A DNA stretch of 64,000 bases from Truepera radiovictrix DSM 17093 (GCF_000092425.1 NC_014221.1:687001-751000); one strand, 5' to 3'. Shown: positions 537 through 11,901, numbered from the stretch's first letter. Made by a program: numbers and translations. The notes: generated from the letters alone by a model not told the origin.

Positions 537-2366
537 GTGCCTGACGACGCCAAAGAACGCATCCGCGAACGCCTCGACCTCGCCGAGGTCGTCGGTGAGG
601 TCGTGGCGCTGCAGAGCGCGGGGCGGGGGCGGCTCAAGGGGCTCTGCCCGTTTCACAGCGAGAAGACGCCGTCGTTTCACGTGCTGCAGGACCGCGGCTT
701 CTACTACTGTTTCGGCTGCCAGGCCAAGGGTGACGTGTTCGATTTCGTCATGCGCACCCAAAACGTGGACTTTTACGAGGCGCTGCAGCTGCTCGGGCGG
801 CGCGTCGGGATCGAGGTCACGCCCAGCACCCCGCAGGGGACCAAAAAGCGCGACCTCTATGAGATCAACAAGCTGGCCTTGGCCTTTTTCAAGGCGCACC
901 TGCCGGGACCCGCGCGAGACTACCTCTTGGGGCGCAAGCTGACACCGGAGAGCCTCGAGGCCTTCGACCTCGGCTACGCCCCCGACAGCTGGGACGCGCT
1001 CCTCAAGCACGCGCTCAACAAGGGCTTTTCCGACGACGACCTCCTGCGCGCGGGGCTCATCGCCGAGTCCGATTCGGGGCGGCGCTACGACCGCTTCCGC
1101 CACCGCGTGATGTTCCCCATCAAAGACGCGCTCGGGCGCGTGGTGGGGTTTTCGGGGCGCGTCCTCGACGACGCGCTGCCCAAGTACCTGAACACCCCCG
1201 AGACCGAGGTGTTTAAAAAGGCCGAGCTGCTCTACGGGCTCGACGTCGCCAAGGGGGCGATCCGCGAGGCGGGCGAGTGCATCGTCGTCGAGGGCTACAT
1301 GGACGTCATTGCGCTCCACCAGTGTGGCTTTAAAAACGCCGTGGCGGCTCTTGGTGCGACCCTCACCGCCGAACAGGCGGCGCAGCTCGCGCGCCAGGGG
1401 GTGGAGCGGCTGCTCCTCGCTTTCGACGCCGACGAGGCGGGGCAGCGGGCGGTCTTGAGCGGGCTCGAGCAGTCGGTGGGGCGCAACTTCTTGGTGCGGG
1501 CGGTGAGGGTGCCTTTCGGCAAAGACCCCGCCGACGCGGTTTTGGCGGGGCACGTCGGCGCCTTTCGCGAGGCGCTGCGGGGCGGGCTCTCCGAGGTCGC
1601 GTTTCGCTTCGAGCGCGTGTTGGCGAGGTTCGACGTGAGCACCCTGGAGGGCAAAAAGGGCGCGCTGCAGGAGCTTCTGCCCGCGCTCACCCCCCGCGAC
1701 GTGTTCGACCCCGTGGCGAGCGAGATGCGGCGGCTGGTGATCGATCACCTAGGGATCGACGGCGCGCGCCTCGACGAGTGGGTGCGCGCGCGCACGCGGC
1801 GCAAGCTCGACACCACGCAGCTCAAGGGTATGCAGCGCGGCGAGGGGGCGTCGCAGCGGGCGATTATCGAGCTCGAGGTGATCGCGCTGCTGCTGCTCGA
1901 GCCGCACCGCTTGGCCGAGCGCCTCGAGGTCCTCGAGGCGGCTCTGCCCGAGGCGGGCGAGGACGCGCTGCTGCGCGAGTTCTGCGCGGTGTGCCGCGCC
2001 TGCGCTTTTGACGACCGCGCGATCTTGCGCCACTACCAGGCGCGGGAGGAGGGGCGCATCGTCTTCGAGCGCCTGCTCACCCAGGAGGCGCAGCAAGAGC
2101 GCCGCATCGACGTCGACGGGCACCTGCACAAGTCGCTCTCGCGCCTGCGCGAGCTCTATTTGAGCGACGAAAAGGAGGCGCAGCGCAAACGCCTGTTGGA
2201 GCGGATGCAGGAGGTCTCGGGCTACTTGACCGACCCGAACTTGCCGACCGACCAGCTGCAGCACTACTACGCCGAACTGAGGGAGATCAACGCCATGCTC
2301 GCCGCCCGCGACGCCGAGCGGCGGCTGCGCGTGCCGACGGGCTACGCCAACCGCAAGCGGCGCTAG
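537..2366 (+). CDS. dnaG: DNA primase DnaG
   Basis: DnaG makes the RNA primers for lagging-strand synthesis and works with the replicative helicase. Of 609 residues, the N-terminal CHC2 zinc-binding domain is clear (Cys37, His40, Cys58, Cys61 within CPFH and YYCFGC). The catalytic core follows with TOPRIM motifs VVEGYMD (about residue 252) and FDADEAGQ (about residue 296). The C-terminal third is rich in charged helices and should be the helicase-interacting domain; it diverges as is usual for this part. The start is GTG at 537, with GAGGAG at 528-533 as ribosome binding site. Length is normal for the family (about 580-650). The gene stands alone, without the rpsU or rpoD neighbours seen in many bacteria. 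Confidence 0.97.
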   Translation: MPDDAKERIRERLDLAEVVGEVVALQSAGRGRLKGLCPFHSEKTPSFHVLQDRGFYYCFGCQAKGDVFDFVMRTQNVDFYEALQLLGRRVGIEVTPSTPQGTKKRDLYEINKLALAFFKAHLPGPARDYLLGRKLTPESLEAFDLGYAPDSWDALLKHALNKGFSDDDLLRAGLIAESDSGRRYDRFRHRVMFPIKDALGRVVGFSGRVLDDALPKYLNTPETEVFKKAELLYGLDVAKGAIREAGECIVVEGYMDVIALHQCGFKNAVAALGATLTAEQAAQLARQGVERLLLAFDADEAGQRAVLSGLEQSVGRNFLVRAVRVPFGKDPADAVLAGHVGAFREALRGGLSEVAFRFERVLARFDVSTLEGKKGALQELLPALTPRDVFDPVASEMRRLVIDHLGIDGARLDEWVRARTRRKLDTTQLKGMQRGEGASQRAIIELEVIALLLLEPHRLAERLEVLEAALPEAGEDALLREFCAVCRACAFDDRAILRHYQAREEGRIVFERLLTQEAQQERRIDVDGHLHKSLSRLRELYLSDEKEAQRKRLLERMQEVSGYLTDPNLPTDQLQHYYAELREINAMLAARDAERRLRVPTGYANRKRR

Positions 2367-2558: not shown

Positions 2559-2921
2559 TTAGAGCGAGATCACCTGAACCGAGGGGCTTGTAGCGAGCGC
2601 GCCGTAGAGGTCGGGAAAGCAGCCGACTGCTACCCCCGCGACCACGCCCGTGGGGGTGGCGCTGCGCGGCGCGCCCACCGCGAGCCCCCGCTGCAGCGCG
2701 CACTGATCGCACATCATGAGCAAGATGCCCTGCTCCCTGGCGACGCGGCCCAAGCGTTCGCCGATGGGGTCGCCCTGGCGCAGCACAAAGGTGTTGTCGT
2801 CGAAGAAAAACATCCCGAGCACCTTGGCGCCGTGGTCGCCGCGCTCGAGCTGCGGCAAGATCATCCCACCCAGCTTGTATGTAGCGGCGTTCGGGGTGTT
2901 AAAGACGTAGGCGACGTTCAT
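2559..2921 (-). CDS. DsrE-like sulfur-relay protein linked to an ABC importer
   Basis: A 120-residue protein with the DsrE/DsrF fold pattern: N-terminal NVAYVFNTP strand, then a FFFDDNTFVLRQG segment and a cysteine pair in MCDQCAL (about residues 76-81) near where DsrE-type proteins carry their active cysteine. Such proteins pass persulfide sulfur or related groups between partners in the cytosol. The ATG at 2921 overlaps the stop of the permease gene (CATGA), and GGAGG lies 5 nt upstream, so it is the fourth gene of the transporter operon. NCBI families describe a DsrE-related protein (SaoD) in selenium-associated transporter operons; this layout resembles that, but the match is from memory of the family and is not proven here. 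A sulfur-compound import role is equally possible. Confidence 0.7.
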   Translation of the reverse strand: MNVAYVFNTPNAATYKLGGMILPQLERGDHGAKVLGMFFFDDNTFVLRQGDPIGERLGRVAREQGILLMMCDQCALQRGLAVGAPRSATPTGVVAGVAVGCFPDLYGALATSPSVQVISL

Positions 2922-3670
2922 GGGTGCCTCCAACGGAGCCAGCGGGCCTCGAGCCTACCCGCGACGTAAAAGAGCAGCAGCACGAAAAGGCCGATGAGGA
3001 GCACCAGCGCGACGACCTGCGCGGTGTTGTAGGTGCTGAGTGCGAAGGTCATCAGGTAACCCAGGCCGCGGCTCGCCGCGACGAACTCGCCGACGACGGC
3101 GCCGGTAAAGGCGAACCCTAGCGCCACCTTGAGGTTGCTCATCACCCACGAGGCGACCGACGGCCCGTAGACCTCGCGCAGGAGCACCCCGCGCCCGCCA
3201 CCCAAGGTGGTCACGCGTTCGACCAGGCGCCGGTCGACCTCGCGAAAGCCGTTGTAGACCGCGAAAAAGATGAGCACCGCGACCAGCACGAGCGACAGGG
3301 CGACCTTCGAGCCGACCCCGATACCGAACCAGATGATAAAGAGCGGCGCCAGGACAACGCGCGGGATAGCGTTTAAAAAGAGCATGACGGGCTCTAGCAG
3401 CTCGCGGAGGAAGGGGACGAGCGCGGCGGCAAACCCCAAAGCCGCCCCCACGACGAGCCCGAAGACGAGCCCCAAGAGCGCCGCGGAAAAGGTGGCTTGC
3501 AGGTGTGGCCAGATCGTGCCGCTCGCGAAGAGGGTGTAGAGCGTCTCGGCGACCGCGCTCGGGGTGGTGGCGTAGAGGTCGGCGAGCAGCCCAGCGCGCC
3601 CGACGAGCTCCCAGACGCCCAGGAGCGCGAGCCAGACGAGCGGGACGCGCAGGCGCGAGGCGCGCTTCAC
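2918..3670 (-). CDS. ABC transporter permease (NitT/TauT/SsuC type)
   Basis: A 250-residue integral membrane protein with about six hydrophobic spans. It carries the BPD_transp_1 inner-membrane permease pattern, including the EAA-like loop around VERVTTLGGGRGVLLREVYGP that contacts the ATPase. The GTG start at 3670 overlaps the ATPase stop (GTGA). The partner genes on either side define a nitrate/sulfonate/taurine-class importer. The substrate cannot be read from the permease. A longer open frame extends upstream to 4207 but overlaps the ATPase gene completely, so it was not used. Confidence 0.88.
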   Translation of the reverse strand: MKRASRLRVPLVWLALLGVWELVGRAGLLADLYATTPSAVAETLYTLFASGTIWPHLQATFSAALLGLVFGLVVGAALGFAAALVPFLRELLEPVMLFLNAIPRVVLAPLFIIWFGIGVGSKVALSLVLVAVLIFFAVYNGFREVDRRLVERVTTLGGGRGVLLREVYGPSVASWVMSNLKVALGFAFTGAVVGEFVAASRGLGYLMTFALSTYNTAQVVALVLLIGLFVLLLFYVAGRLEARWLRWRHP

Positions 3671-4443
3671 CGCGTGGCCCCCTCGAGCGGCGCCGTCGGG
3701 GAGGGGGCTGCGAAGGCACCCTCGAGGTCGCTCCACAGCCGCTTGAGGAGCGGCGCGAAACCCGGTAGCGTGCGCGTCACGATGGGGTCGCGCGGGCGCG
3801 GCAGGGGCACCTCGTAGCGCTCTTTGACGCGCGCGCGCGGGCCGTTTGAAAGCAGATAGATGGTGTCTGACAGGCTGATCGCCTCCTCTAGGTCGTGGGT
3901 GACCAGGAGCACGGTGAGGCGCTCGCGCTCCGTCCAGCGCAGCACGTCCTGGGTGATGCGGTGCCGGACGATGGCGTCGAGCGACGCGAAGGGTTCGTCC
4001 ATCAGTAGCAGGCGCGGCCCCAGCGCCAGCACCTGGGCGAGCGCCACCCGCTTGCGCTGCCCCCCCGAGAGGCGGCGCGGAAAGCGGTCCTCGAAACCCG
4101 TGAGCCCGAGCCGGCCGAGCCAGGTGTGCGCGCGCGCCAGGGCCTCGGTTTTGGCGACCCCCCGGATGGTGAGGCCCAACGCGACGTTCTGCGCCGCCGT
4201 GCGCCACGGCAAGAGGGCGTCGTCCTGAAAGAGGAAGCCGACCTCCTCGCGCGGCACGCCGAGCGACACCGCGCCGCCCTCTGGCGCTTGCAGCCCCATG
4301 ACCGCCCGCAGGATGCTGCTCTTACCCGAACCCGACGGCCCGACGAGCGAGACGAAGCGCCCCGCGGGGACCTCGAGGTTCACCCCCGCCAGCACCGGTT
4401 CGGCCCCGCCGTAGGCCAGCGTGAGGTCCCGAACCGCGAGCAT
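3667..4443 (-). CDS. ABC transporter ATP-binding protein (SsuB/TauB type)
   Basis: A 258-residue nucleotide-binding subunit. Walker A is GPSGSGKSS, the Q-loop is FLFQDDALLPW, the signature is LSGGQRKR, Walker B is LLLMDEPF and the switch is VTHDLEEA, all in order. It powers uptake through the permease encoded next. The ATG at 4443 sits inside the stop of the binding-protein gene (TGATG); a GTG one codon earlier (4446) is also possible. The C-terminal tail after about residue 210 is longer than the bare domain and is typical of the SsuB/TauB subfamily. Confidence 0.92.
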   Translation of the reverse strand: MLAVRDLTLAYGGAEPVLAGVNLEVPAGRFVSLVGPSGSGKSSILRAVMGLQAPEGGAVSLGVPREEVGFLFQDDALLPWRTAAQNVALGLTIRGVAKTEALARAHTWLGRLGLTGFEDRFPRRLSGGQRKRVALAQVLALGPRLLLMDEPFASLDAIVRHRITQDVLRWTERERLTVLLVTHDLEEAISLSDTIYLLSNGPRARVKERYEVPLPRPRDPIVTRTLPGFAPLLKRLWSDLEGAFAAPSPTAPLEGATR

Positions 4444-5576
4444 CACGCGGCCCGGAGCCCGCTCGGCGCGTCCGCCCCTAGCGCGGCGGTGTCGAGGAGC
4501 GCGTCTAGGTCCACGGGCGCCGCCAGCACCCCGGCGCTCAGGTTGGCCTCCTGGACGCGCGCGCTCGAGGCGGGGTCGATGCTGACGGTTTCGGGGTAGA
4601 GCGACAGGCGGTAGCGCTCCAAGATGTCGGCGAGCCTTCCGGGGTCGCCGCCGGTGACCAGCTCCGGCGGCAGCGCCGCGATGAGGTCGCCGGGGGAGGC
4701 GGTGCGCAGCGCCCTGAGCCCGCGCTCTAGCGCCCGCGCCAGCCGCCGCATCTCGTCGAGGCGCTCGTCTCGCTCCGCGGCGCGCACCGCGACGCCCATG
4801 AACTCGTAGGTGCCGCCCAAAAAGCGCTCGGCGTCGGTTAAGTCCATCCCGTTAAAGAGCACCCGTCCGCCGGCCTCCTGCACGAGCGAGAGCGCGGGCT
4901 CCTGCACCATCCCGGCGTCTACCTGGCCCGCGTTGAGCGCTTCGTAGAGGTTGGTCCCGATGGTGGCGTACTCGAGGCTGCCCGTGTCCACCCCCGAGCG
5001 TTGGAGCAGGTAAAGGAGCAGCGCGTGGTCGGCGTTGCCGAGCCCCGAGATGCCGACGGTAGCGCCCGCGAGCCCCTCAAGGGAAGCGATGGGGCTCCCC
5101 GGTGCGGTCGCTAGGGCGAAGAGCGGCAGTTGACCGGTGGTGGCGAAGCGCCGGATCGCGGCGCCGCTCGCGGCCGCCTGCAGCGCCACGTCGAGGCTGG
5201 TGGCGGCGTAGTCGACCGCGCCGCCGACGAGCGCCTGCATGGCGGCGTTGCCGCCGCGCGCGTAGATGTACTCGACCTCGAGCCCTTCGTCCTCGAAAAA
5301 GCCTTCGGCGCGGGTGAACTCGTAGGGCACCACGCACAGCAGCTGGCTGCAAAAGGCCAACCGAACGCGCTGCGCGCGCGGGTTGCAGGCGACGAGGCTA
5401 GGGGCGAGTGTGACGCCCACGAAGGTCCCGAAAAGACCCTTGAGGACGCTTCGGCGCTCGACGCCGCCGAGCGTACTGGGGTCTCCCTTCCAGGCGCTAA
5501 GTAGGTCGGTTGGGGGGCTCCGGCGCGCCTTGTAGCGCGGCGGGCTCTTGATGGCGAGTTCGTCACAGCATCCCAT
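4443..5576 (-). CDS. Substrate-binding lipoprotein of ABC importer (NMT1/THI5-like)
   Basis: A 377-residue binding protein of the NrtA/SsuA/TauA class. Around residue 40 there is a twin-arginine-like ERRSVLKGLFG stretch, a hydrophobic run and a lipobox SLVAC, so export (perhaps by Tat) and lipid anchoring are likely. The mature part shows the two-lobe pattern (EGFFEDEGLEVEYIYARGG near its start; GLEGLAGATVGISG-like region mid-way). The ATG at 5576 is preferred because GAGGAG lies 7 nt upstream; about 37 residues then precede the signal, which is long, and a mis-set start is possible. It leads the operon binding protein, ATPase, permease, DsrE-like protein. Ligand unknown; a reduced-sulfur or selenium compound is suggested only by the DsrE partner. 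Confidence 0.85.
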   Translation of the reverse strand: MGCCDELAIKSPPRYKARRSPPTDLLSAWKGDPSTLGGVERRSVLKGLFGTFVGVTLAPSLVACNPRAQRVRLAFCSQLLCVVPYEFTRAEGFFEDEGLEVEYIYARGGNAAMQALVGGAVDYAATSLDVALQAAASGAAIRRFATTGQLPLFALATAPGSPIASLEGLAGATVGISGLGNADHALLLYLLQRSGVDTGSLEYATIGTNLYEALNAGQVDAGMVQEPALSLVQEAGGRVLFNGMDLTDAERFLGGTYEFMGVAVRAAERDERLDEMRRLARALERGLRALRTASPGDLIAALPPELVTGGDPGRLADILERYRLSLYPETVSIDPASSARVQEANLSAGVLAAPVDLDALLDTAALGADAPSGLRAA

Positions 5577-5605: not shown

Positions 5606-5624
5606 GTTGACAACTTTGGTCAAC
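5606..5624. promoter_or_regulatory. Inverted repeat in the divergent importer/P450 intergenic region
   Basis: GTTGAC (5606-5611) and GTCAAC (5619-5624) form perfect 6-bp arms around a 7-nt spacer, 30 bp upstream of the binding-protein start. This is a plausible regulator site for the importer operon. The rest of the 307-bp gap between 5577 and 5883 shows no clear promoter or RNA fold to me. Confidence 0.35.
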
Positions 5625-5883
5625 CATCGTCCACGTCCGAGTATCCGTGAGCGTCGCGGCGCTGTCAATGCGTCAGCTTGCAAAACGGGGTCAGCGCAAG
5701 TGTTCGGCGCTCATAGGTCGCCTCTCTACCCTGGCACACACTGCCCTCGGGGCACCTCCGGTCAGAATAAAGGTAGGCAGGAGCACAAAGCGCGTCGCAA
5801 GGTGAGACGCAGCTTGTGGGGGGCGCTGCGGGTTTGGGTCCGCGCCTCTACCGAAACGCTACCGAGCCACCAGAGGGGGTTAC

Positions 5884-7209
5884 ATGAACCGTGCATCGCT
5901 ACCCGTCGCTTCGGTGCAGGACACGCTAAGCGTCTTGTCAGACATCGTCATCCCGACCGTCGCCAAGGGCCCGATCATCCGCCGCCCGAAGATCGTCGCG
6001 CTTACCGAGGCGCTCGACCTTGACACCAGAGCCGTGCGCCGGATGCAGCGGCTTAGGGACACCTACGGGCCGGGGCCTCTCATGCTGCGCGTCCCGGGCC
6101 AGCCCAGAGCGCTCATCTTGGACCCGGAACACGTCCACCGCGTGCTAGCGGGTTCGCCTGAGCCCTTCACCACGGCCAGCTTCGAAAAGCGCGCCGCGCT
6201 GTCGCACTTCGAGCCCAAGGGGGCGCTCATCACCCGCGGCCCCGCGCGCCCCGACCGCCGCCGCTTTAATGAGGAGGTCTTGGACCACGAGAGCCCCATG
6301 CACAGGCTCTCGGCGCAGCTTCTGGCGGTCGTCGCCGAGGAGGCCGACGAACTCCTCAAAACGGTCCGCCGGCGCCGCTACGCGCTCGAGTGGGACACCT
6401 TCTTCGCCGCCTGGTTCCGCCTCGTGCGGCGGGTCGTCTTCGGCGACGGTGCCAGGGACGACACGAAGCTCACCGACATGATCTTTAAGCTCCGCGCGGA
6501 CGGCAACTGGGCCTTTTTAAAGCCCAAGAACAAGGGGCTGCGCAAGCGCTTTTTCAGGCGGATGCACCGCTACTTAGAGCGCGCCGAACCGGGGAGCTTG
6601 GCGCACGTCATGGCGCACACCTACGCCACCAAACAGACCGCCCCCGACCACCAGGTGCCGCAGTGGCTCTTCGCCTTTGACCCCGCCGGTATGACGACGT
6701 TTCGCTCGCTCGCGCTGCTGGCCTCGTTCCCCGAGCAGGCGGAGCGGGCGCGCCAGGAGGTTCGGGAGAGCCCACCCCTGCCGGTGCTCCCCTTTTTGCG
6801 GGCGACGGTGCTCGAGTCGCTGCGCCTGTGGCCCACGACGCCGATGGTGCTGCGCCAGAGCACCCGCGAGACGCAGTGGGAGGAGGGGGTCATGCCCGCC
6901 GAGACCGGCGTGCTGATCTACGCGCCCTTTTTCCACCGCGACGAGACGCGCCTGCCCTACGCGCACCGCTTCGCGCCGGAGGTGTGGCTCGAGCACGGTT
7001 TTTCGCAGCCGTGGCCGCTCATCCCCTTTTCGCAGGGGCCCGCCATCTGCCCGGGGCGACACCTCGTCTTGCTGCTCACCAGCAACATGCTCGCGCACCT
7101 CATCACGGGCCGCGAGGTGTGGCTACGCCCCCTCAACCGCCTCGGGGTGCCGGGGCCGCTGCCGGGGACGCTCAACAACTACGACCTGCGCTTCGAGCTG
7201 AGCCGGTAA
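5884..7209 (+). CDS. Cytochrome P450
   Basis: A 441-residue haem-thiolate monooxygenase. The haem-binding loop reads FSQGPAICPGR with the axial cysteine at residue 389, the K-helix ExxR motif is ESLR (about residue 310), and the I-helix oxygen-activation segment is FDPAGMTTF (about residue 267), where the usual acidic-Thr pair is replaced by Met-Thr-Thr. There is no membrane anchor, so the protein is soluble and needs ferredoxin-type electron donors, which are not encoded nearby. The ATG at 5884 follows a purine-rich GAGGGGGTT. Substrate unknown. The glycosyltransferase downstream is separated by 125 bp and has its own leader, so a shared pathway is not implied. Confidence 0.93.
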   Translation: MNRASLPVASVQDTLSVLSDIVIPTVAKGPIIRRPKIVALTEALDLDTRAVRRMQRLRDTYGPGPLMLRVPGQPRALILDPEHVHRVLAGSPEPFTTASFEKRAALSHFEPKGALITRGPARPDRRRFNEEVLDHESPMHRLSAQLLAVVAEEADELLKTVRRRRYALEWDTFFAAWFRLVRRVVFGDGARDDTKLTDMIFKLRADGNWAFLKPKNKGLRKRFFRRMHRYLERAEPGSLAHVMAHTYATKQTAPDHQVPQWLFAFDPAGMTTFRSLALLASFPEQAERARQEVRESPPLPVLPFLRATVLESLRLWPTTPMVLRQSTRETQWEEGVMPAETGVLIYAPFFHRDETRLPYAHRFAPEVWLEHGFSQPWPLIPFSQGPAICPGRHLVLLLTSNMLAHLITGREVWLRPLNRLGVPGPLPGTLNNYDLRFELSR

Positions 7210-10101: not shown

Positions 10102-10307
10102 TGAGCAGCCCCATCAAACAGGCGGCCAATACCCTGCCGGGCTGCCATTGCACCCCACTTGAAGCCCTCCTCGAGAACTGCACTGAACAGCTTGTGCAGG
10201 AGTACAAGTTCCTCTCCGACAACGACCTTCGTATTGTCGAACTGGTGCGAGAGGCACTGAAACGGGGCGTAGAACTCGCCAACAGCCGGGTAGGGGACTT
10301 TCTCTGA
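10101..10307 (+). CDS. Small helical protein, second ORF of the IS operon
   Basis: 68 residues, not recognised. The start overlaps the previous stop (TAATG) and the TGA overlaps the tnpA ATG (TGATG), so translation of the chain is likely coupled. The C-terminal half reads as a long amphipathic helix (LSDNDLRIVELVREALKRG), as in small DNA-binding or dimerising accessory proteins. A role in target choice, cis preference or control of TnpA amount can only be guessed. Confidence 0.6.
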   Translation: MSSPIKQAANTLPGCHCTPLEALLENCTEQLVQEYKFLSDNDLRIVELVREALKRGVELANSRVGDFL

Positions 10308-10702
10308 TGCCCCGCGCCTACCAGCACAAGACCACCTCGGTATTCCTCTTGAACTACCATCTCGTGTGGATACCGAAGTACCGCAAGAAGCTGCTGGTAG
10401 GGCGCGTCAGTGACAGGCTCAGCGAACTGCTTAACGACAAGTGCGAACGGATGGGGTGGGAGGTCATCGCCTTAGAGGTGATGCCCGACCACCTCCATCT
10501 CTTCATCGGCGCTGACCCCAGCACCTCGGTGGATTGCATCGTTCGTCATCTCAAGGGCTACACCTCCTTCAAGTTGCGGCAGGAGTTTCCACATCTGGCG
10601 CGGTTGCGTAGTCTGTGGACGCGCTCGTATTTCGTTTCGACCGCTGGTAACGTCAGCTCCCAGACGATTGAGCGGTATATTGCAGAGCAGAGGAAACGCT
10701 GA
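10307..10702 (+). CDS. tnpA: IS200/IS605 Y1 transposase TnpA
   Basis: 131 residues, a full-length Y1 HUH single-strand transposase. The HUH motif is H62-L-H64 in MPDHLHLF, and the catalytic tyrosine is Y124 in IERYIAEQ. It cuts and joins the top strand at the palindromic ends, moving the element as single-stranded circles, usually linked to replication. All key residues are present, so it should be active. It is translationally coupled to ORFs on both sides by TGATG overlaps. Confidence 0.95.
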
Positions 10703-11901
10703 TGCTGCTTCGCAAGGTCTACCGCTTCCAGATGCGCCCCACAAAGGCGCAGGAAGAACTGCTGTGCCAGATGGCTGGGGCGAAACGCTTCGTGTTCAAT
10801 TGGGCGCTGGCTAGGCGTCGTGACTTCTATGAGGCGAACAAGGAGGGCATCAGTGCCAAGCAGCTTTCAAGCGAGCTAACCGACCTGAAAAAGCAACCTG
10901 AAACCGGGTGGCTTAAGGGCGTTGACTCGCAGCTCCTTCAACAGGCGCTCAAGGACGTTGACCGCAGCTTCAAGAACTTCTTTGAGAAACGCTCGCGCTT
11001 TCCTCGGTTCAAGTCGCGCAAGCGAGAGATGCCGAGCTTCCGCATTCCGCAACGGGTCAAGGTTGAAGATGGCAAGGTCTACGTTCCTAAAATCGGCTGG
11101 GTACGCATCCGCCAGTCTCAAGACATTGACTGCAAAACCAAGTCGGCCACCTTCAAGCGCGACGCCACCGGCAAGTGGTATGTGACGCTGACGGCCGAGT
11201 TTGAAATGCCGGACGTGCCACTACCGCCCGCCAAGCCTGAGAACGTCGTAGGCATAGACCTCGGGCTCAAAGACTTCGCTGTCCTTTCCAGTGGTGAACG
11301 GGAAGCGCCGCCCAAGCACTACCGCGCCGCCGAGAAGAAGCTGAAACGCGCACAAAGGGCGCTCTCTCGCAAGCAGAAGGGAAGCAAGAACCGTGATAGA
11401 GCCAGACAGCAGCTAGCTCGTATCCATCAGAAAGTCAGGAACAAACGTCAAGACTTTCTCCATAAGATGACCACCTCCCTAGTGAGGGGCTATGAGGGTA
11501 TCTGTATCGAAGACCTATCGCTCAAAGGCATGGCGAGAACCAAGCTAGCCAAGAGCGTGTCTGATGCGGCCCTCGGAGAGTTCCGTAGGCAACTCGAGTA
11601 CAAAACGGTGTGGCATCGAAAGCACCTGGCAGTCATAGACAGGTTTTTCCCAAGTTCCAAGCTGCACATGGAGTGCGGCGCTATCAACGACGCCCTGACA
11701 CTCGCTGATAGGGTTTGGACGTGTGCCTGTGGTGCGGTGATAGACCGCGACCTGAATGCGGCGCACAACATCAAAGTAGAAGGACTTAAACAGCTTGTCG
11801 CGGCGGGGCACGCCGAGACGCTAAACGCTTGTGGAGCGCAGGTAAGACCGACCCTAATCAGTCGGCACAGCGCTGTGAAGCAAGAATCCCACGTGCTTTA
11901 G
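10702..11901 (+). CDS. tnpB: TnpB RNA-guided nuclease of the IS element
   Basis: 399 residues, full length for TnpB. RuvC-like catalytic acids are D186 (GIDLG), E270 (CIEDLSL) and D350 (DRDLNAA). The zinc finger is HMECG (322-326) and CACG (341-344): the first ligand is His322 where most family members have Cys. TnpB proteins cut DNA guided by an RNA made from the right end of the element and help keep the element in the genome. The stop codon lies inside the right-end hairpin, so such an RNA would overlap the last codons. The gene looks intact. Confidence 0.94.

Follow-up and report, generated by a model that had tools for sequence, protein, structure and literature searches.

The genome of Truepera radiovictrix DSM 17093 carries, in the 64,000-nucleotide window analysed here (bases 687001-751000 of a 3,260,398-base single-contig genome), an operon of four consecutive minus-strand genes encoding a substrate-binding protein (SBP), an ATP-binding cassette (ABC) ATPase, an ABC permease and a DsrE-fold protein, in this order from window position 5576 to 2559. 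This four-gene importer operon is real; it does not belong to the sao operons, and nothing linking it to selenium was found. The explanation that we favour, with a probability of roughly 0.4, is a selenium-independent importer of the TauT/NitT class for a thiol-binding ligand, whose cargo would most likely pertain to zinc or thiophilic-metal economy.

The genes of the operon are the following:
4443..5576, minus strand: SBP (377 amino acids), NMT1/SsuA-like, of an unnamed conserved family (translation, profile matches, alignment, AlphaFold)
3667..4446, minus strand: ABC ATPase of TauB/SsuB type, starting at GTG 4446 or ATG 4443 (profile scores)
2918..3670, minus strand: ABC permease of SsuC/TauC type (profile scores)
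2559..2921, minus strand: DsrE-fold protein of family NF040913 (120 amino acids; 189.6 bits vs a cut-off of 152; AlphaFold)

An earlier note on this DNA, made from the sequence alone, had described a binding lipoprotein, an ATPase, a permease and a DsrE protein overlapping by a few bases, and all four genes were recovered at those positions. The overlaps are of 4 bases each (1 base between SBP and ATPase if the latter starts at ATG), the junctions reading GTGATG (SBP stop/ATPase start), GTGA (ATPase/permease) and ATGA (permease/DsrE). The MCDQCA motif that it had noticed is present in the translated DsrE protein. To its description can be added that the SBP has a twin-arginine signal (RRSVLKG) accompanied by a lipobox-like cysteine (LVAC).

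Is this a sao operon, as the same note had suggested from the resemblance of the four genes to SaoB, SaoA, SaoP and SaoD? The proteins were scored against the NCBIfam models of the Sao system (SaoB NF040727, SaoA NF040729, SaoP NF040733, SaoD NF040732, SaoC NF040734, SaoT NF040730), and none exceeded a Sao cut-off. The ATPase scores 184.1 bits to taurine TauB vs 144.4 to SaoA (cut-off 360), the permease 100.9 bits to SsuC vs 86.4 to SaoP (cut-off 295), the SBP has no match to the SaoB and SaoX models at E<=1 in the NCBIfam scan, and the DsrE protein reaches 110.5 bits to SaoD proper, below its cut-off of 169. What stands of the resemblance is that the DsrE protein passes the cut-off of the sister family NF040913, named 'SaoD/DsrE family', over profile positions 1-125. 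Among possible partners, SaoT has no match in the genome at E<=0.001, and the genome search for SaoC was likewise without a match, although control genomes gave none either, so that this search has no positive control. SelA was not found in the genome, and the top SelD-like match scores 27.5 bits vs a cut-off of 125. The pattern that the earlier note had set against its own proposal, higher scores to plain models and no Sao partners, is thus the one found for the ATPase, the permease and the SBP. A genuine selenium-linked Sao importer shares with this operon its gene types, the SaoD/DsrE superfamily and the presence of cysteine motifs; however, because the scores to the Sao models fail and neither partner nor selenocysteine (Sec) genes were detected, we reject Sao membership and regard such an identity as very improbable. 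The motifs also differ, being MxCC and CxQxLC in the SBP described here, whereas SaoB is listed with CUxxT. SelD is above cut-off in some other genomes carrying the SBP; Sec capacity therefore varies among carriers, and the importer is independent of it. A tempting selenium annotation is hereby corrected.

The SBP is a member of an unnamed, cysteine-marked family of the TauT/NitT class, conserved across several phyla. It passes PF09084 (NMT1/THI5-like; 81.7 vs a gathering score of 20.5) and misses the curated sulfonate models (74.8 vs a cut-off of 163.5 for SsuA_fam, 24.7 vs 304.25 for the taurine SBP); its only NCBIfam matches are to SsuA/TauA-type models, all below cut-off. A genome scan recovered 29 close relatives (49-63% identity), labelled as Acidobacteria/Vicinamibacterales, alpha-, beta- and deltaproteobacteria, a spirochaete and HR32. 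In nearly all of them the SBP gene is succeeded by this ATPase and this permease; with at least 25 genomes from several phyla keeping the order, the arrangement is not due to chance. Three marks characterize the family: M-x-C-C, which precedes the twin-arginine signal; C-x-Q-[LIF]-L-C, located where the mature domain starts; and GNADH. In the window, an N-terminal region of 40 residues starting with MGCC precedes the twin-arginine translocation (Tat) signal RRSVLKG, after which comes the lipobox-like Cys64. The residues M1, C3, C4, R41, R42, C76, Q78, L80, C81, D183 and H184 are invariant in the SBP alignment, as are many others. The conserved motifs of the SBP, and that of the DsrE protein, lie as follows:
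5565..5576, minus strand: M-G-C-C at the SBP N-terminus, ahead of the Tat signal (Cys3-Cys4 invariant in alignment A1)
5451..5456, minus strand: twin arginines R41-R42 of the RRSVLKG Tat signal (invariant in alignment A1)
5334..5351, minus strand: C76-S-Q-L-L-C81, start of the mature SBP domain (C76, Q78, L80, C81 invariant)
5025..5036, minus strand: N181-A-D-H184 of GNADH (D183, H184 invariant)
2700..2711, minus strand: C71-D-Q-C74 of the DsrE protein (C71, C74, C101 invariant in its alignment)

One seed of the genome scan contained MGCC, so the search may have favoured the MxCC motif. The Deinococcota members were found by profile and not with this seed, and they keep the motif (MSCC, MDCC, MGCC, MECC or VDCC, and YCC in the most divergent one) as well as CxQxLC; in Thermaceae, the CC motif stands directly ahead of the twin arginines. 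Outgroup SBPs (L060-L065, 20-29% identity) have neither CxQxLC nor GNADH, whose histidine they lack, and MxCC is likewise missing from them. The AlphaFold model of the SBP (mean predicted local distance difference test score, pLDDT, 81) has 3QSL as its closest fold (template modelling score 0.77 on the target), followed by PqqT, TauA, SsuA and THI5-like proteins; among solved structures only 3QSL is close by sequence, and no ligand lead was drawn from it. By DSSP assignment on this model, C76 is located where beta-1 ends and C81 belongs to the first helix of the mature domain; the fold suggests that both cysteines would face the ligand cleft.

The DsrE protein is modelled with a pLDDT of 92, and its fold matches YchN, DsrEFH and TusBCD, at 8-17% identity to these solved relatives; no significant sequence relative of solved structure was found. 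It shares the fold and conserved cysteines with the DsrEFH/TusBCD sulfur relays, but is a single 120-residue protein with a CxxC motif and a third invariant cysteine. Family NF040913 is matched in 27 of 111 Deinococcota genomes where, away from the importer operon, the gene often stands beside AztD-like, ZnuA/AztC-like and CobW genes. A 7-2-7 palindrome of Fur-family type, TGATAATnnATTATCA, lies directly upstream of DsrE in eight loci (L066, L068, L069, L072, L073, L076, L078, L079) and upstream of a ZigA-DsrE pair in another (L071); altogether, 23 such boxes with at most three mismatches occur in 27 Deinococcota loci (461 kb), vs 1.8 in mononucleotide shuffles. In one genome (G006), the ZigA neighbour is above its model cut-off. 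In the Truepera genome, the perfect copy of TGATAATnnATTATCA is flanked by a Fur-family gene on one side and by an AztD-like gene on the other, the next-best copy by a CobW side and by an AztC/AztA-like operon, while one of the three-mismatch copies precedes a ZigA-like gene that scores 570 bits (its cut-off being 600). Outside Deinococcota, DsrE of HR32 has an AztC-type SBP on one side and an ABC ATPase on the other, within an AztC-type ABC operon; one alphaproteobacterium (G287) has a run of genes for a MerB-like protein, HisI, a 68-residue frame, DsrE and a ZigA-like GTPase; and in another (G259) DsrE adjoins DUF1826 and a CobW gene. HisI paralogues, DUF1826 and COG0523 GTPases have been described as companion genes within Zur regulons (PMC2770081). 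Family NF040913 is thus tied to zinc-starvation genes outside the importer operon, and its neighbours favour zinc as the sensed metal, although the models closest to the ZnuA-like SBPs include some for manganese. No report of such a link was found in the literature searched. Independently of the importer, the family gains a zinc-starvation context in Deinococcota, Alphaproteobacteria and HR32, while NCBI files it by its likeness to SaoD only.

Two observations were made along these loci. A conserved protein of about 140 residues (MNPMPVVMYLMGLEAEHGLL...; L077:12005-12430, also in L071, L078, L079 and L081) recurs in the zinc-type clusters of Thermaceae and has no Pfam or NCBIfam match. An AT-rich genome (G380, L140:7657-8031) has, close to a Fur-family gene, a DsrE homologue containing a single in-frame TAA.

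How closely are the importer and the DsrE protein linked? DsrE is directly joined to the permease in the window, in G083 and in the Thermaceae G054-G056. In favour of the link, co-occurrence of SBP and DsrE is pronounced in Deinococcota (DsrE in 11 of 14 genomes with the SBP vs 16 of 97 without; Fisher p = 6e-6) and in alphaproteobacteria (3 of 8 genomes with the SBP vs 2 of 288 sampled; p = 1e-4), but these tests ignore shared ancestry, and the alphaproteobacterial set with the SBP is non-random. The ABC operon lies apart from DsrE in G046, G049 and G072, where DsrE accompanies zinc-type genes or follows TGATAATnnATTATCA, and likewise in G063, where the SBP is interrupted by an internal stop. 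Permease and DsrE are separated in three alphaproteobacteria by a NifU_N-like gene whose product starts with a CC-containing N-terminus, and in a spirochaete the same NifU_N-DsrE pair is found on a contig separate from the SBP. This small NifU_N-like protein, whose N-terminus has a CC or CCC, stands immediately ahead of DsrE at L118:2143-2909, L041:10616-11369, L059:9988-10744 and L047 (about 10600-11369). The codon-position-based gene call used here passes over some real genes: DsrE in L068, L075 and L079, and also several genes for permeases or SBPs. As for the interrupted SBP of G063 (L091/L110), the gene contains an internal TAG and is apparently broken, and the genome keeps DsrE in a zinc-type cluster.

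In the mechanism that we favour, the Tat-exported SBP would hold the ligand in a cleft with two invariant cysteines, and probably the invariant histidine too; the permease and ATPase would carry it inward; and the DsrE protein, through its CxxC and third invariant cysteine, would accept or exchange the thiolate-bound cargo in the cytosol. This cargo may be a metal-thiolate or metallophore complex, and zinc or another thiophilic metal is favoured because the same DsrE family stands under a zinc-type operator elsewhere. Homologues of AztABCD, ZigA and CobW are neighbours of the DsrE family in Thermaceae, HR32 and alphaproteobacteria, and in Thermaceae they also have their operators in common with it; the SBP of the window is however NMT1-type, not ZnuA/AztC-type, and its operon has no TGATAATnnATTATCA box. 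If the proposal is correct, MxCC and CxQxLC in an SBP are the signature of a new importer family of several phyla, recognisable from sequence, whose cargo is named by no current model. A bolder version, which we hold to be doubtful, would have the importer capture a metal-thiolate or metallophore through a Cys2-His site in an NMT1-type SBP, with the N-terminal Cys-Cys acting in the cytosol (sensing or receiving cargo) and a zinc-regulon DsrE as cytosolic acceptor; it would then represent a widespread undescribed class, and a zinc route unrelated to ZnuABC.

Several observations weigh against a metal cargo or against a fixed role of DsrE. No TGATAATnnATTATCA box with up to three mismatches occurs in the window, and none was found in front of the SBP operons scanned (in Deinococcota, that of the window and four others, Thermus included); the regulation of the operon therefore differs from that of the zinc genes. 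Among the alphaproteobacteria sampled, G192 carries the SBP but no DsrE, and 22 of the 29 carriers outside Deinococcota are devoid of an NF040913 DsrE, which is therefore not essential to the importer. The fold relatives of the SBP bind organic anions, PQQ (pyrroloquinoline quinone) or thiamin-type ligands. Finally, Acidobacterial loci and some alphaproteobacterial ones have Blh/TIGR01244-like sulfur-transferase homologues as neighbours instead; these adjoin the SBP operon in 11 loci: upstream of the SBP in L032, L035, L038, L040, L046, L048, L051 and L056, and downstream of the permease in L037, L039 and L052. Those of Acidobacteria are apparently secreted.

With such neighbours, sulfur fits as well as metal, and an importer whose cargo is a reactive sulfur or organosulfur compound (persulfide, thiosulfonate or sulfonate), in which the DsrE, NifU_N-like and Blh-like proteins would act as sulfur carriers comparable to known relays, is nearly as likely as one for a metal cargo; thiol-reactive cargo, be it a metal complex or sulfane sulfur, is the common ground of both. 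The SsuA/TauA type of the SBP in fold and sequence, the relay-like fold of DsrE and its NifU_N-like partner speak for sulfur as well, yet no sulfonate-cleaving enzyme was recognised next to the operons, and the operators and neighbours of the DsrE family elsewhere are of zinc type. Should the operon instead be taken as a plain importer of an ordinary small anion, of SsuACB/TauACB type, with DsrE and the cysteines being incidental? Fold and gene types are the same, the best curated matches of all three ABC components are of this kind (TauB for the ATPase, SsuC for the permease), and DsrE is missing from many carriers of the SBP. We nevertheless find this unlikely, as the SBP remains far under the SsuA cut-off, carries MxCC before its Tat signal and has a DsrE protein attached, and Cys3, Cys4, C76 and C81 show no variation across several phyla, unlike incidental residues.

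A further possibility is that a mercury-like or organometallic compound is taken up or handled in order to detoxify or demetallate it. The MerB-like protein (PF03243, 105 bits) of the G287 run (L139:6849-10173) retains C-A-L-D and stands with HisI, DsrE and the ZigA-like GTPase, a MerT-like membrane protein with a CC motif was recognised by eye near one SBP operon (L051:6593-6955), and it has been proposed for SaoB and SaoC that their Sec residues are metal ligands (PMC13188914). We find this reading improbable: each mer-type gene was seen at one locus, no mer genes were recognised near the operon of the window or most other loci, and HisI, ZigA and DUF1826 in similar runs indicate zinc starvation.

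Upstream of the operon, two signals were found in addition to a Shine-Dalgarno-like GAGGAGA directly 5' of the SBP ATG at 5576:
5640..5668, minus strand: sigma-70-like promoter TTGACA-17-GATACT (motif scan with shuffled control)
5606..5624, no strand assigned: palindrome GTTGACCAAAGTTGTCAAC between promoter and SBP ATG, a possible operator (search for the pattern GTTGAC-N7-GTCAAC)

The promoter is the one such site in 3.7 kb, vs a mean of 0.2 in shuffles. The 19-base palindrome GTTGACCAAAGTTGTCAAC is the sole exact GTTGAC-N7-GTCAAC match of the genome; it was rejected as a regulon-wide operator, 17 sites being found with at most one mismatch (one of them exact) vs 5 for a control pattern.

By eye, the operon is convergent with a dnaG-like gene (537-2366, plus strand) and divergent from a cytochrome-P450-like gene (5884-7209), and neighbouring frames at 10307-11901 resemble an IS200/IS605-type transposase and a TnpB-like protein.

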